Source: Lysobacter silvisoli (GTDB lineage Bacteria > Pseudomonadota > Gammaproteobacteria > Xanthomonadales > Xanthomonadaceae). Taken from it: DNA of 64,000 bases. Positions 37,503-58,332 of this stretch are shown piece by piece. The first letter of the stretch is position 1. The number at the start of each line of letters is the position of its first letter. A model generated the notes under the pieces. The model made no database searches. It was not told the DNA's origin and saw only the letters and a list, made by a program, of their open reading frames with translations. The translations under genes were made by a program, and so were the position numbers. The stretch lies in assembly GCF_003382365.1 (NCBI RefSeq), contig NZ_QTSU01000001.1:2232001-2296000 (forward strand), written 5' to 3'.

Positions 37503-37604
37503 AAAGCAAATCGCCCTAGGCCCCCTTTTTCAAAGGGGGAACAGAGTCATCGTCTTTGCTTTTCGCCTCCCCCTTTGGAAAAGGGGGATTGAGGGGGATT
37601 TGCT
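37503..37604. repeat. Long inverted repeat (AGCAAATCCCCC family), copy 2
   Basis: Arms 37503-37541 (AAAGCAAATCGCCC at the end, inner CCCCCTTTTTCAAAGGGGGA) and 37562-37604. Occupies the gap between the convergent esterase and PhnA-like genes. Same family as 3717-3842 and 58226-58332. Confidence 0.85.
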
Positions 37605-37623
37605 CTACCCCATGAAGAAGCGA

Positions 37624-40942: not shown

Positions 40943-43900
40943 TTATGGCGTGCCCCGTTGCGCGCTGGTCGCGTTCGGCAGCCATAGCTCGATCACGCGT
41001 TCGTTAGGCTTGAAGGCGCCGGGCAGTTTGCGCAGTTCGATCTCGGGCGTGGACGCGTACCAACCGGCCAGCTGCGGCGCCAACCAGTCCTTCAGCGCGC
41101 TCGCGCACAGGCCCTGGTCGTCCATGCGGTGCACGATCAGGGTGGGTGCGGCATAGCTTTGCGGCGCGTCGGCGTTGCGCGCGCGCGCCGAACGCACCAC
41201 ATTCTCGACGCCGGGCATGCTCGCGCCGGGCTGCAGCTGCGACCACGGCAGCGCTTGCACGCGGCGGCGGGTGTCGTCGTTGTAGACCTGCACGTAGACG
41301 GTCACAGGCTGGGCGGCGCAGTCCTCGCGCACGGCTTGCGCCGGCGTACGCAGCGCGAGCTTCTTCGCTTGCGGCGCGGTCACCTGCGGCAGACTCGGCG
41401 ACGGCAGGCTTGCAGCCGGCAGCGACGAGGTCGACGTACGCAACAGGGTGCCGCTTCGCGCCGGTTCGGGCGATTCGAGCACCGCCGATACCAGCGGCGC
41501 CGCGTCGCTGCTGCGCTGCCAGTAAGGATTGGCCGCGGCCGGATCGCAGACCGCGCTGCACAAGTTGCGGTGCGCGCTCTGCACCGGCGGACAGGCCTGG
41601 GTCAGGCTCGCCGCGGGCGGCAGGCCGCAGCTGGCCTGCACGTGGCTCACCAGGCGGCCGGCGTCGCTGAGCGTGTCGCGCTCGTGGCGGACCTGGGCGT
41701 AGACCCGGCTCAGCAACGCCTGCAAGTCTTCGTCCAGGTCCCAGGTCGCTTGCGCGGCGGGTGCGGCTTGCCCGGCGCGCGCCCAGGCCGGCAACTGCTT
41801 GCGCAGCTCGCCCAGGCTGCGCCGGGTTTCGTTGCGCTGCTGCTGGCGCTGCTCGGAGAGTTTGTCGAACACCTGCCAAGCCGGCACCGCCAAGGTCGCG
41901 ATCAGGCCCGCGCCCAGGCCGGCGCTGATCGCCGCGGCCTTGGTGTCGGGGCGCCAGAACGGCCGCGCCGCCACCTCATCGCCCTTGGCCTGGATGGGCC
42001 GCAGCCGGCGCAGCGAAGGCAGCGTGTCCTGCGCCTCCACCGGCGCGGCCCAGCCCGGCAACTGCTCCAGCCAGCCCGGCAGCAGCGCGCGGCCGAAGTC
42101 CTCGCCCAGGCGGTGGTAGCTCTCCCACTGCGCCTCGTCGAAGAACTGGTCGGAGGTCGGCTGCTGCGGGAACTTGGGATTGCGCCGCGCGTAGGCCAGC
42201 ACGTCGCTGTCCAGGGCGAAGTGCAGGTTCGGCTTCACCACCAGCAAGGTGCCCTGCTTGCTGCGGCCGTGTTCGTCGGGCCGGTAGCGGATGCGCGCCA
42301 GCATGACCCCGCGCGCGGTGTAGTTGTCGTGCAGCTTCTCCGGCGCCAGCACGCAGATCTGCTCTTCCTGCAGCAGCGGCAGGTGGCAGACGCTGTCTTC
42401 GGTGTAGAACTCGATCTCGGCGCCGTAGTCGATGCGCGCCTTGCGGATCAGGTTCTCCAGATCGGCGAACTGGTAGTCGGGATCGGCACCGCAGTCGGCC
42501 AGGACGATGAAATCCAGTTGCCGCCGCAGCAACGGATGCACACCGGTGTTGTCGAAGTGCCCGCCGTCGGACAAGTACCAGGCGCGCGCGGAGGGCCCGT
42601 CGAACGAGGCGGTGGCCTCGCCGATCAGGCGGCCGAATTTGGAGTTGCGGTAGACGCGCGCGAGCGCGGCGAACCCGCGCCCCAGCAGCGTCGGCCGCGC
42701 GGGCCCGATGCCCAACGCCGGCTGGTCCATCTGCGCATCGGCGCGGCCGGCGTCGAACCAGTAGCCCAGGCGCGCGCCGACCAGGAACAGCAGCATGGCC
42801 CAGCCCGGCGTGGTGTTGGACCCGGCGCCCGGCGAAGCGGCCGCGCCCGACACCGCGATCCAGCGGCCGAGCTTGTCCAGGCGCTGCGCCGGCAACTGCG
42901 GCTGCTGGGCGTCGCGGCCGATCTCCAGGCCGAAGGCAGTGGCCACCAGCGGCAGGCCCTTGCGGTCGGCGTTGTAGAGCTTGCTGCTGGCGCCGCGGGT
43001 CTGGTTGAGGCAGGTGTTGATCAGATGCAGCGGGCCGCCCTGCAAGTCGGGGCGGTAAGCGGCCAGGTCGACGTCGTCGCCGTCGACGGTGTCGACCACG
43101 TTCGACACCTGCTCGGGGCTGGCGCGGCGCAGGCCGAGCATGCCTTCGCCGGCGAAGCGGCGGCGATTGCCCACACCCAGGTAGGCGCGGGTCAGGCGCG
43201 AGCGATAGAACCCGTGCAGCGAGGTGCTGTTGACGGTTTCGGTGTGCAGGCCGGTGCCCAGGAACCAGACCAGCAGGCCGATGGTCAGCCACAGCAGCCG
43301 CAGCAGCGTCGGCTGCGCCACGGTCCATTGCAGCCAGGCCCACAGCGGCAGGTCGGCCAGCCCGTTCCATATGGGCAGCGAGGCGCGCCCGATCCAATGG
43401 CTGAGCAGCTGGTTGGGGTCGGCGACATGGCGGCCGAACACCCACCACTGCACTACGGTCACCCACAGCACCAGCAGCACGGCGGCTGCGCCCAGGCCGA
43501 GCACGTTGATCAGCAGCGGCATCAGGCCGGGCCGCGGACCTTCTTCGTTCGAGAGCAGGCGTTGGATCGGCTCGCCGAAGGCGCGCACCACCACCACCAA
43601 CAGGCCGCCCAAGCCAAGGCTGCCGTAGACCCAGGGCGCGCCGGACTCCAGCGTCTGCAGCAGCCACCAGCTGGCCAAGTCGATCGCGCCCAGAGCGGCC
43701 AGCGCCACGGCCAGCAGGTTGATCCGGCGCAGATGCGCGGTCAGGCGATCGCGTTCGCGCGCGTTGAACGTATCGCGGTCGTCACGCGCCTTGGCCACGC
43801 GCACCCACAGCCACAGGCCGTAGCCGACGGTGCTGAGCAGCATGAGCAGGGCGACGAACTGCGCGCTGAAACCGGGCAGCGGCACGCTGGCGTCGGACAA

Positions 43901-44674
43901 GCGCCGGGCCAGCGCGAACGCGATCGCCGCCGCGCCCAGCACCATGCCGATGTCCCAGGGCGAGAAGCGCGGCCGCGACGTGCTGGCCGCGCCGCCCAGC
44001 GGCGGCGCATCGCGCAGCGCCCAGTAGGCCATCAGGTTGCCCGGTGCCAGCAGCAGCCAGGTCAGCACCGCCAGCGGCCACCAGGCGCTGCGCCAGCCGC
44101 TCCAGTCCTGGGGCGACAGCACCGAGGTCACGCTCTGCAGCAGGTGCGGCAGCACCACCAGCACGCCCACGGCGATGGCCAGCAGGGCGAACTCCAGATG
44201 CACGGCCAAGCCCGCGCGCAGGTAGGTGGCGATGGCGATGCCGTAGTCGCGCGCGCCGCGCGGCGCCAGGTAGCGGCCATAGCGGCGCAGCCAGGCCAGC
44301 AGCAGGGTGTCGCTGCGCTTGAGCAGGTCCTGCGCGGGGGCGATGCCCAACGAGGCGATCAAGCGACCCAACGCGGCGCCGGCATAGCCGCCGCCGGATA
44401 CGGTGGACAGGTAGTCGAAGCGCGGCAGCAGGCCGTTCTGCGCCAGCCCTCGGATCAGGCCCAGGCAGAAGGTCGCGCTGCGCACCCCGCCGCCGGACAG
44501 GGCCAGGCCGATGGTGCTGGGCGCCTGGCCTGCGCGCGGCTCGGTGCCGGCCAGACGCCGGCGTTCGGCGAGGGCGGCGCGTTCGGCCGCACCGATGGCG
44601 GGCGCAGCGGCGTCGCGCCCGACGGCGTCCGCAGGCTGCGCGTCGCGCGGGGATGGGTTATCGCTGGGCGGCAT
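40943..44674 (-). CDS. Large patatin-like phospholipase with multiple membrane segments
   Basis: 1243 residues, far longer than a typical patatin (300-450). The patatin core is recognisable: oxyanion GLALSGGGVRSATFCLGL (residues 56-73), nucleophile Ser93 in STVSGGGYAG, and catalytic Asp near residue 702 in SDGGHFDNTGV. A large insertion of about 400 residues holding some eight hydrophobic segments separates Ser from Asp. A further membrane segment (SAGLGAGLIATLAVPAWQVF near 920) precedes a C-terminal domain of about 300 residues with no recognised fold. Likely an integral membrane lipid acyl hydrolase. ATG 44674. An equally long antisense frame is a shadow. Confidence 0.85.
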   Translation of the reverse strand: MPPSDNPSPRDAQPADAVGRDAAAPAIGAAERAALAERRRLAGTEPRAGQAPSTIGLALSGGGVRSATFCLGLIRGLAQNGLLPRFDYLSTVSGGGYAGAALGRLIASLGIAPAQDLLKRSDTLLLAWLRRYGRYLAPRGARDYGIAIATYLRAGLAVHLEFALLAIAVGVLVVLPHLLQSVTSVLSPQDWSGWRSAWWPLAVLTWLLLAPGNLMAYWALRDAPPLGGAASTSRPRFSPWDIGMVLGAAAIAFALARRLSDASVPLPGFSAQFVALLMLLSTVGYGLWLWVRVAKARDDRDTFNARERDRLTAHLRRINLLAVALAALGAIDLASWWLLQTLESGAPWVYGSLGLGGLLVVVVRAFGEPIQRLLSNEEGPRPGLMPLLINVLGLGAAAVLLVLWVTVVQWWVFGRHVADPNQLLSHWIGRASLPIWNGLADLPLWAWLQWTVAQPTLLRLLWLTIGLLVWFLGTGLHTETVNSTSLHGFYRSRLTRAYLGVGNRRRFAGEGMLGLRRASPEQVSNVVDTVDGDDVDLAAYRPDLQGGPLHLINTCLNQTRGASSKLYNADRKGLPLVATAFGLEIGRDAQQPQLPAQRLDKLGRWIAVSGAAASPGAGSNTTPGWAMLLFLVGARLGYWFDAGRADAQMDQPALGIGPARPTLLGRGFAALARVYRNSKFGRLIGEATASFDGPSARAWYLSDGGHFDNTGVHPLLRRQLDFIVLADCGADPDYQFADLENLIRKARIDYGAEIEFYTEDSVCHLPLLQEEQICVLAPEKLHDNYTARGVMLARIRYRPDEHGRSKQGTLLVVKPNLHFALDSDVLAYARRNPKFPQQPTSDQFFDEAQWESYHRLGEDFGRALLPGWLEQLPGWAAPVEAQDTLPSLRRLRPIQAKGDEVAARPFWRPDTKAAAISAGLGAGLIATLAVPAWQVFDKLSEQRQQQRNETRRSLGELRKQLPAWARAGQAAPAAQATWDLDEDLQALLSRVYAQVRHERDTLSDAGRLVSHVQASCGLPPAASLTQACPPVQSAHRNLCSAVCDPAAANPYWQRSSDAAPLVSAVLESPEPARSGTLLRTSTSSLPAASLPSPSLPQVTAPQAKKLALRTPAQAVREDCAAQPVTVYVQVYNDDTRRRVQALPWSQLQPGASMPGVENVVRSARARNADAPQSYAAPTLIVHRMDDQGLCASALKDWLAPQLAGWYASTPEIELRKLPGAFKPNERVIELWLPNATSAQRGTP

Positions 44675-44817
44675 GCGACCGGCTCCGTGTCGTTGGGGCT
44701 TCCCTGTTGGCGGCTAACGATACGCAGGCGCGGTGCAGGCCATATGGCCGGCTGTCGGACAAGGGTGGGCGGTCGGGCGGAGGGGGGGCAGCGGCGCGAG
44801 TGGGGAGCTGCGTGCGC

Positions 44818-44943
44818 CCTCACCCCAACCCCTCTCCCGCAAGCGGGAGAGGGGCTAAAAGCAGCAGATAGGGATTAGCAGGTAAAGGGTAGCGGTCGGA
44901 TGCGTACCCTCTCCCGCCTGCGGGAGAGGGCTAGGGTGAGGGG
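44818..44943. repeat. CTCTCCCGC inverted-repeat element upstream of patatin gene
   Basis: Left unit 44818-44856 (ACCCCTCTCCCGCAAGCGGG) and right unit 44906-44943 (CTCTCCCGCCTGCGGGAGAG) are inverted to each other, and outer ends CCCTCACCCC and GGGTGAGGGG pair. Each half contains a perfect palindromic stem. The middle (44860-44895) carries TTAG/TAAAGGG-type low-complexity sequence. Confidence 0.75.
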
Positions 44944-45015
44944 ATGAGCGCAGCGAATGCCTTTGATCCTCGCTCGGGCCCCGAGCTCGCAGCACCAGTA
45001 GAAGACCCGGAGGGC

Positions 45016-45069
45016 GGCGCACAGGATGTGCGCCGTTTTTCGCTAGGCCAGGGATGGCCTATCGAAAAA
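45016..45069. repeat. Nested hairpins, including an orphan terminator-like stem
   Basis: GGCGCACA-GGA-TGTGCGCC followed by GTTTTT (45016-45040) is a perfect rho-independent-terminator shape on the plus strand with no plus-strand gene upstream. It runs directly into TTTTTCGCTAGGCCA / TGGCCTATCGAAAAA (45036-45069), a 15-base stem with one mismatch and a four-base loop. The U-tract of the first is the left arm of the second, so the two structures are mutually exclusive. Confidence 0.7.
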
Positions 45070-45126
45070 TCCCCGCGCACGCATCGCTCTCGCAAGGGAG
45101 CTCTGGCGAAGCGTTTTTCTTTGGTT

Positions 45127-45156
45127 ACTTTCTTTTGACGCTTATCAAAAGAAAGT
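45127..45156. repeat. Perfect 12-bp inverted repeat ACTTTCTTTTGA/TCAAAAGAAAGT
   Basis: Perfect 12-base arms with a six-base loop, in AT-rich sequence, next to GTGACCCGGCCGCTTGCGGA. I recall similar sequence as an interspersed intergenic element of Xanthomonadaceae. Part of the same structured region as 45016-45069. Confidence 0.7.
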
Positions 45157-45210
45157 GACCCGGCCGCTTGCGGACGGAAGCTGTTGCTGTTGCTGCTGAG
45201 CAAGAGCCAA

Positions 45211-45257
45211 AGAGCAAATCCCCCTCAATCCCCCTTTTTCAAAGGGGGAAGACAAGC
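45211..45257. repeat. Half copy of the AGCAAATCCCCC repeat
   Basis: Only the left arm is present (AGAGCAAATCCCCCTCAATC, then CCCCCTTTTTCAAAGGGGGA, and GACAAGC beyond). It is nearly identical to 58226-58272 but has no partner arm downstream. Confidence 0.8.
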
Positions 45258-45300
45258 AAAGGTGGAAGCAGGGGAACGAGGCTTGCGGCGCAGGTGCAAA

Positions 45301-45394
45301 TTCGCGGTCGCAGCTTGCGCAGCTCCTACAGGGGCAATCGCGGCTTTCGCGGAAGTTGCGGATTCGCGGTCGCGGCTTACGCCGCTCCTACCCC
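45301..45394. repeat. Three REP-like units upstream of pilU 3' end
   Basis: Units at 45301-45330 (GGTCGCAGCTTGCGCAGCTC), 45335-45362 (ATCGCGGCTTTCGCGG) and 45363-45394 (GGTCGCGGCTTACGCCGCTC). Same family as 10118-10252. Together with the other elements they make 44675-45480 (806 bp) a gene-free repeat-dense interval. Confidence 0.72.
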
Positions 45395-45416
45395 GGGGCC
45401 AGCACGGTTAGGGGCC

Positions 45417-45449: not shown

Positions 45450-45480
45450 ATGGGCGGATCGGAATGGGCGCAGTGGCGCC

Positions 45481-46611
45481 TTAGCGCACTTCCGCCACTT
45501 CCACGCCGTCCAGGCCTTGCGCCAGCGTGCGCGCGTCGCCGCCCTGGGCCAGCTTGATGCGCAGACGCACTTCGTTCTGCGAGTCGGCGTAGCGCAGCGC
45601 GTCCTCGTAGCTGATCTCGCCGGCCTGATAGAGCTCGAACAGGGCCTGATCGAAGGTCTTCATGCCCAGCTGCACGGATTCCTTCATCACTTCCTTCAGC
45701 TTGTGGATCTCGCCGTCGCGGATGTAGTCCTGCACCAGCGGCGTGCCGAGCAGGATTTCCATCGCCACCCGGCGCGCCTTGCCGTCCGGGGTCGGGATCA
45801 GCTGCTGCGCGACCACGCCCTTGAGGTTCAGCGACAGGTCCATCAGCAACTGTTGACGACGGTCCTCAGGGAAGAAGTTGATGATGCGGTCCATCGCCTG
45901 GTTGGCGTTGTTGGCGTGCAGGGTGCACAGCACCAGGTGACCGGTTTCGGCGAAGGCGATCGCGTGGTCCATGCCCTCGCGGGTGCGCACCTCGCCGATC
46001 ATGATCACGTCCGGCGCCTGGCGCAGCGTGTTCTTCAGCGCCGCCTCCCAGCTGTCGGTGTCGATGCCGACCTCGCGCTGGGTGATGATGCAGCCCTCGT
46101 GCTTGTGCACGAATTCGATCGGATCCTCGATGGTGATGATGTGACCGGTCGAATTCTGGTTGCGGTAGCCGATCATCGCCGCCAGCGAGGTCGACTTACC
46201 GGTACCGGTGGCGCCGACGAAGATGATGATGCCGCGCTTGGTCATCGCCAGCGTCTTGATGATCGGCGGCAGGTTCAGCTCTTCCACCGTCGGGATCTTG
46301 GTCTCGATGCGGCGCAGCACCATGCCGACCTGGTTGCGCTGGTAGAAGCAGCTCACGCGGAAGCGGCCCACGCCGGTCACGCCGATGGCGAAGTTGCACT
46401 CGTGGGTCTTCTCGAACTCCTCGCGCTGCTGAGGGTTCATCACGTTGAGCACGAGGTCGCGGCTCTGCTGCGGGGTCAGCGGGTTCTGGGTGATCGGCGA
46501 GATCTTGCCGTGGACCTTCATCGACGGCGGCATGCCGGCGGTGATGAACAAGTCCGAGGCCTTCTGGTGCGCCATCAGCTTGAGGAACGAGGTGAAGTCG
46601 ATGGTGCTCAT
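45481..46611 (-). CDS. pilU: Type IV pilus accessory retraction ATPase
   Basis: 376 residues of the PilT/VirB11 secretion ATPase class. Walker A GATGTGKST, Asp box IIGEVRTREGM context, His box TLHANNANQAMDRI and Walker B are complete. It shares the PilT fold but has the PilU N-terminus (STIDFTSFLKLMAHQKASDLF) and a longer C-terminus. PilU works with PilT to retract pili. It follows pilT on the same strand, separated by a repeat. Confidence 0.95.
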   Translation of the reverse strand: MSTIDFTSFLKLMAHQKASDLFITAGMPPSMKVHGKISPITQNPLTPQQSRDLVLNVMNPQQREEFEKTHECNFAIGVTGVGRFRVSCFYQRNQVGMVLRRIETKIPTVEELNLPPIIKTLAMTKRGIIIFVGATGTGKSTSLAAMIGYRNQNSTGHIITIEDPIEFVHKHEGCIITQREVGIDTDSWEAALKNTLRQAPDVIMIGEVRTREGMDHAIAFAETGHLVLCTLHANNANQAMDRIINFFPEDRRQQLLMDLSLNLKGVVAQQLIPTPDGKARRVAMEILLGTPLVQDYIRDGEIHKLKEVMKESVQLGMKTFDQALFELYQAGEISYEDALRYADSQNEVRLRIKLAQGGDARTLAQGLDGVEVAEVR

Positions 46612-58222: not shown

Positions 58223-58225
58223 GCA

Positions 58226-58332
58226 AGAGCAAATCCCCCTCAATCCCCCTTTTTCAAAGGGGGAAGACAAGCGGAACCTTGCATAAGGATTCCTCCCTTT
58301 GAAAAAGGGGGCTAAGGGGGGGGTTTTCTCTT
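58226..58332. repeat. Long inverted repeat (AGCAAATCCCCC family), copy 3
   Basis: Left arm 58226-58272 (AGCAAATCCCCCTCAATC, CCCTTTTTCAAAGGGGGAAG) and right arm 58287-58332 (CTCCCTTTGAAAAAGGGGGC, TAAGGGGGGGTTTTCTCTT). It lies between the convergent aroB and cysteine-hydrolase genes. Confidence 0.85.

Follow-up and report, generated by a model that had tools for sequence, protein, structure and literature searches.

A dispersed three-hairpin repeat of Lysobacter silvisoli, probably a structured RNA element related to TwoAYGGAY with paired predicted RsmA sites at gene ends

The window analyzed here is a stretch of 64,000 nucleotides from Lysobacter silvisoli (assembly GCF_003382365.1, contig NZ_QTSU01000001.1, positions 2,232,001 to 2,296,000). 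Between a patatin gene and a pilU-like gene, it carries three hairpins in close succession, which an earlier note, made from the letters alone, described as an orphan terminator with mutually exclusive hairpins inside a possibly mobile element. The question is whether these hairpins are a device of this one locus or a copy of something wider, and what they could do. The features are as follows, in window coordinates.

44807..45395, plus strand: composite repeat unit, consisting of a left palindromic module, a three-hairpin core and right repeats; limits approximate
44816..44942, no strand: left module, the inverted repeat CCCTCACCCC...GGGTGAGGGG, from an inverted-repeat search
45006..45014, plus strand: mini-hairpin CCC-GGA-GGG, whose middle three letters differ among copies
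45015..45035, plus strand: hairpin 1, 8 pairs, loop AGGAT (45023-45027) with GGA at 45024-45026, followed directly by TTTTT
45036..45040, plus strand: T run, terminator-like with hairpin 1 and also in the 5' arm of hairpin 2; absent in some relatives
45036..45069, plus strand: hairpin 2, T run as 5' arm, loop AGGGAT (45050-45055) with GGA at 45052-45054
45123..45160, plus strand: hairpin 3, a long A/T-rich stem kept together with the core
45277..45395, minus strand: right module, two copies of a REP-like repeat with a GTAGGA head on the minus strand, from a repeat search (REP form as in PMC2817692)

All three hairpins were found where the earlier note had placed them, as judged from their arms, their pairing and the fold against shuffled sequences. 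The stem of hairpin 2 has 14 positions on each side, which make 13 pairs and one C.U mismatch, or 15 positions if the loop-side A-U is counted. The arms of hairpin 3 (45123-45138 and 45145-45160) were recovered by the inverted-repeat search as 16 nt with 94% complementarity. The plus-strand RNA of 44944-45200 folds at -115.2 kcal/mol (z -3.74), and none of 200 shuffled sequences was equally stable. The fold of the minus strand over the same interval is comparable (z -3.63).

An attenuator built from mutually exclusive hairpins had been suggested for this layout. The T run is indeed common to hairpins 1 and 2, and it can change partners: in 44944-45200, it pairs upstream in the minimum-energy fold and within hairpin 2 in the centroid fold. 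The exclusion itself does not hold, as the two stems are adjacent, do not overlap and are both able to form, with the T run alone in common. Transcription reaches the 3' arm of hairpin 2 only after hairpin 1 and the T run are complete, so hairpin 2 would come too late to serve as an antiterminator. The order of the hairpins thus does not appear to be that of an attenuator. There is no leader peptide, there is no plus-strand gene downstream, and the T run is missing from some relatives. It is very improbable that the element is an attenuator.

The nearest gene upstream is the patatin gene on the minus strand (40943-44674), and the open-frame list of the window contains no plus-strand gene upstream of the element, in agreement with the earlier note. 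A simple scan at the window copy found no sigma-70-like promoter. A simple terminator scan was close to chance (2 found against 1.3 +/- 1.1 expected). What stands above chance here is repetition and covariation, unlike the terminator alone. Open frames are present in the element, of 64 aa on the plus strand and 90 aa on the minus strand, the latter crossing the element (44931-45203). Neither frame matches Pfam, and gaps of 1, 2, 4 and 5 nt between copies break the frame, so that a role in coding for small proteins is hardly conceivable. Antisense frames in so many copies could enter genome annotations as spurious hypothetical proteins.

The element is a dispersed repeat. The pattern of hairpin 1 plus T run, with up to 2 mismatches, matches 114 places in the genome of the window (hereafter G000; other G and L numbers denote the genomes and loci compared), and the reversed control matches none. 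These 114 are matches to the hairpin-1 motif, not full-length copies. A search of the same genome, in which 40 of 213 first-look candidates were scored, listed 40 long matches of 88-100% identity. Many of these 40 copies are colinear by blastn over the composite unit. The arm of the left module is also found separately elsewhere in the genome. We found no account of the repeat as a high-copy family in the open-access literature searched.

Several side features of the copies were observed. A short repeat (CCCCCTCAATCCCCC...GGGGGA) lies within the composite unit at 45210-45257, and two further occurrences are in the window at 58225-58272 and 37554-37606. In the copy at L055:1107-1346, another palindromic repeat interrupts the loop of hairpin 2; repeats insert into repeats. 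By eye, some relatives, with copies at L061:1501-1681 and L061:1143-1324, have an additional CAGGANG hairpin that separates hairpin 2 from hairpin 3, in the forms GGGC-AGGAA-GCCC and GGAC-AGGAT-GTCC.

Two models were used to follow the element across taxa. R1 was built from G000 copies alone and includes hairpin 3, and R2 comprises hairpins 1 and 2. R1 found the element in 66 of 119 family genomes, representing 35 of 54 genera. R2 found it in 70 of 200 genomes of the order and in 51 of 274 genomes of the class, three of the latter belonging to the family of the window. The best R2 score outside the order was 74.4 bits. In these searches, the best candidates per genome were scored, and the model E-values are rough. 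The remark in the earlier note that similar sequences lie near many xanthomonad genes is borne out by these counts and by the 114 pattern matches.

The loops of hairpins 1 and 2 are conserved to an extent that the stems are not. We collected 166 copies: 40 of the ~114 in G000, 42 of 53 matches from one search, and all 84 matches from another. Left out of the 53 were the window copy (counted in G000), L048 (the same place as L106), and nine short or weak fragments. The motif CA(N)GGA(N)G is kept in both loops in 159/166 copies by the folding script and in 160/166 by position. The difference is L151, one of the seven exceptions of the script, which in fact holds the hairpin 2 motif. Among the others, GGA is lost from hairpin 1 in L062 and L065, L158 has N there, L055 carries the insert in hairpin 2, and L067 (a weak match) and L164 have no matching hairpin 2. 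The distance from GGA to GGA is 27, 28 or 29 nt in all 160 copies measured. In the 40 G000 copies, both GGA are invariant, and the base following GGA in hairpin 1 occurs as all four letters.

Around these loops, the stems covary. In an alignment of 43 diverse representatives, 94.0% of cells pair, and 17 of 21 pairs are changed on both sides. The covariation score is 0.460, against 0.145 +/- 0.011 for shuffled alignments and at most 0.164 when slid. These 43 were taken from 47 representatives, picked after the seven exceptional copies were set aside. The result holds when all 11 set-aside rows are restored (91.3% of cells pair, 17/21 pairs changed, score 0.447 against 0.144); the controls are slightly weaker there, with 1 and 2 of 500 shuffles reaching two of five measures. 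Compensatory changes among copies, which the earlier note had set beforehand as its test, are therefore present.

The conservation of the loops could depend on how copies were selected. When the outer arms of hairpin 2 were the sole fixed part of a pattern, matches came from 25 of 149 family genomes (none in the control), and 146 of the 150 places listed have CA(N)GGA(N)G between those arms. The exceptions are in G030, G035 and G056, which have no GGA on that strand, and in G144, which reads GTGGAT. Because a pattern of outer arms alone recovers CA(N)GGA(N)G, the loops are not a product of copy selection alone. In the converse scan, in which the loop and the outer arms were fixed and the inner stem was left free, at least 87 sites with at least 29 distinct arm pairs were obtained, from 80 of 111 matching stretches, among the matches listed. 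Of the listed arm pairs, 28/29 pair at 5 or 6 of 6 positions. The inner stems of the listed matches average 5.38 paired positions, against a shuffled mean of 3.29 and a shuffled maximum of 3.83. A strand test on the copies gave 8 G.U against 4 A.C pairs, a ratio that does not distinguish the two strands.

In G000, the copies lie at gene ends. With gene calls from a simple codon-usage gene caller, 35 of 40 copies are at junctions of convergent genes, compared with 16 of 148 other junctions; among other junctions with a gap over 150 bp, 5 of 33 are convergent. The upstream gene reads into the element in 38 of the 40. The window copy is one of the two whose upstream gene reads away. The word orphan therefore fits the window copy, which is atypical, but not the repeat. 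Convergent placement is seen for 15/20 copies in G015, 5/6 in G070, 3/5 in G043, 3/5 in G013 and 4/9 in G116, and is lower in G058, G085 and G111 jointly (2/8) and in G006 (1/8). Placement at convergent gene ends is thus not universal and is weaker in other genera. The placement may simply reflect that insertions at gene ends are tolerated.

The same placement would suit an element that mainly serves as a terminator or barrier for convergent genes, where hairpin 1 and the T run would stop the left gene, the other stems the right gene, and the GGA loops would be incidental. A T run of at least four follows hairpin 1 in 40/40 G000 copies and in 21/21 G015 copies. However, it is missing in 18/18 copies of G116 and in 24 of 84 other copies, which retain the GGA loops. 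A terminator needs no fixed loop, and the simple scan gave a near-chance result. It is unlikely that termination is the main role of the element.

The locus itself shows a difference in presence between close relatives. In the congeners G617, G015 and G615, the patatin gene and the pilU-like gene adjoin and the element is absent between them. The aligned flanks lie 118, 51 and 193 bp apart, respectively, versus about 710-725 bp in G000, and the alignment with these congeners breaks off at 44758 and picks up again at 45466-45483. The element is absent at the pilU loci of 23/23 relatives, within 1500 bases on each side (104 on the relevant side in L224). As the site is empty in the congeners, the window-locus element was gained in the G000 lineage or lost in the congeners. 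The empty site, together with the covariation, bears out the earlier description as a dispersed element with conserved structure.

At other sites, copies are shared between species. By blastn, 8 of 20 G015 loci have both flanks in common with a G000 locus, close to the number expected under full sharing (7), given that the comparison covered 40 of the ~114 G000 copies. At these eight sites, the G000 and G015 copies are 75.7% identical on average, versus 75.9% for non-orthologous pairs. Copies within a genome are 95% identical, and the flanks of the shared sites are 78-92% identical. Since orthologous copies are no closer than non-orthologous ones, the copies at shared sites have either evolved in concert or been replaced repeatedly in place.

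Copies are single in G000 (40/40) and G015 (21/21). They form inward-facing pairs at 9/9 loci in G116 and outward-facing pairs at 6/6 loci in G013, and they are mostly outward-facing in G070 (5 pairs, 1 single). The pair orientation differs by species, as though the spreading unit differed, as seen in G116 (L126-L133, L049) and G013 (L060, L159-L163).

The repeats resemble the REPs and REPINs of RAYT transposases in being high-copy intergenic palindromes that form inverted pairs in some species, and the composite unit itself carries GTAGGA-headed REPs. The genome has a sole Y1-transposase (RAYT-like) gene, at L232:1258-2029 (G000:C5 near 81067), and the REP repeat of the right module also flanks this gene. 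Unlike REPs and REPINs, the core has fixed GGA loops and no GT(A/G)G head, which the right module has, and R2 found no match for the core near the Y1 gene in L232. Movement of the core by the RAYT was considered and rejected, as the Y1 gene is flanked by REPs without a core copy nearby. In the comparison with MITEs, which have terminal inverted repeats and target-site duplications, the empty site was found, and the spacers have diverged too far for the ends of the element or a target-site duplication to be assigned.

If the element were a selfish DNA repeat of the MITE or REPIN type, a transposase would read the fixed loops as single-stranded DNA. The empty site in three congeners, the high copy number, the species-consistent inverted pairs in some genomes and the REPs of the right-end kind around the Y1 gene are all compatible with such a repeat. 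The headless core and its absence near the Y1 gene are not what it leads one to expect, and the loops fit a CsrA site and an Rfam family of the RsmW clan. Mobility is, moreover, compatible with acting as RNA. We regard such a selfish repeat as improbable.

CsrA/RsmA proteins bind A(N)GGA motifs presented in hairpin loops with a closing C-G pair. Both hairpin 1 and hairpin 2 have a GGA loop of this type. The genome has one csrA gene, whose product matches solved CsrA and RsmE-type chains.

At the gathering score, Rfam gave no match in the window, and TwoAYGGAY (RF01731, clan CL00106; cut-off 43 bits) did not match the window even at E<=1. Rfam microRNA matches on the GC-rich palindromes are far under their cut-offs and were treated as chance. 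Homology to TwoAYGGAY appears through the relatives. Against TwoAYGGAY, two L195 copies reach 50.4 and 47.8 bits, and the cut-off is also passed by 14 places in G358 and by 6 of 19 listed in the congener G116. These are the only two of 17 genomes searched that pass, and there is no TwoAYGGAY match in G000, G015, G006 or G013. R1, in turn, matches the same places as TwoAYGGAY in L199 (G116) and L195 at full length, with E-values from 4e-24 to 2e-12.

TwoAYGGAY was considered in 2010 a probable RNA that is probably not cis-regulatory (PMC2864571), and it was predicted in 2014 to bind CsrA (PMC4333381). The Rfam entry types it as cis-regulatory. Like TwoAYGGAY, the element has two adjacent GGA-loop hairpins with compensatory changes, and the tandem G.A mismatches described for one TwoAYGGAY stem (PMC4333381) recur in hairpin 2 of several relatives (CCGAGCC/GGCGAG). 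The loops of TwoAYGGAY are AYGGAY, unlike the AGGAT and AGGGAT of the window; relatives such as L049 and L070 have ATGGAT. The high copy number, the third hairpin and the flanking repeat modules also set the window element apart. The outer helix of TwoAYGGAY, described as poorly conserved, is seen by eye in distant relatives and has no clear equivalent in the window. In L183, L187, L190, L191 and L196, all outside the order, an outer helix and a common GCGCAGG before hairpin 3 were noticed by eye. Judging from the distant relatives, the complete structure may be larger than the modelled core. The best reading of the sequence comparisons is that the window element is a diverged relative of TwoAYGGAY, not a formal member.

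It is likely that the element is a dispersed structured-RNA repeat, a relative of TwoAYGGAY that places paired predicted RsmA sites at gene ends. The plus-strand element would mostly be transcribed from the upstream gene, in its 3' UTR or by read-through. Its two adjacent hairpins would fold and expose A(N)GGA(N) loops closed by C-G, 27-29 nt apart, and an RsmA/CsrA dimer would be expected on both loops. Each copy would act as a cis tag for RsmA at the end of an mRNA, influencing stability or processing, and the copies would jointly compete for RsmA against its other targets. In G000, hairpin 1 and the U-tract may also end transcription, with termination optional. More tentatively, the copies could form a distributed, genome-wide RsmA sponge. 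About a hundred gene ends would then carry an RsmA-binding pair, free RsmA would report the total transcription passing through gene ends, and the copies would evolve in concert, with stem arms covarying and loops fixed.

If this is true, the cell has many candidate RsmA sites, found across 66 of the 119 family genomes searched, and RsmA control would be tied to the transcription of gene ends. The TwoAYGGAY family would gain a definite role that can be put to the test, and compensatory stems that apparently change in concert at scattered sites would make an unusual evolutionary system.

An experimental parallel is RsmU (sRX061) of Xanthomonas campestris, an RNA from the comEA 3' UTR whose binding to RsmA was seen in both gel shift and co-immunoprecipitation (PMC7694677). 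With all four predicted GGA motifs changed, RsmU was still bound by RsmA in a smaller complex, and the phenotype was unaffected (PMC7694677). Hairpins with GGA loops of the same kind are present in both the 3' UTR of comEA and the element: the comEA 3' UTR has the loops CAGGA(C/A)G and CAAGGACG in 8 loci of the genus Xanthomonas (L096 and L103 left out). Homology of RsmU to the repeat is not supported, the best R1 score being 17 bits (L101) among 13 of 30 loci. RsmU is a single locus, in contrast to the dispersed element.

The same report states that the known Csr/Rsm sponge RNAs have no significant homologue in any sequenced Xanthomonas genome (PMC7694677). The RsmW model scores 22.7 bits in the window, where 52 are needed, and reaches 32.9 in relatives, all below the threshold. 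Like CsrB, RsmX, RsmY, RsmZ and RsmW, the element has paired GGA hairpins that would be expected to titrate RsmA/CsrA. Those sponges are made from one or a few sRNA genes, whereas the element is spread over about a hundred places.
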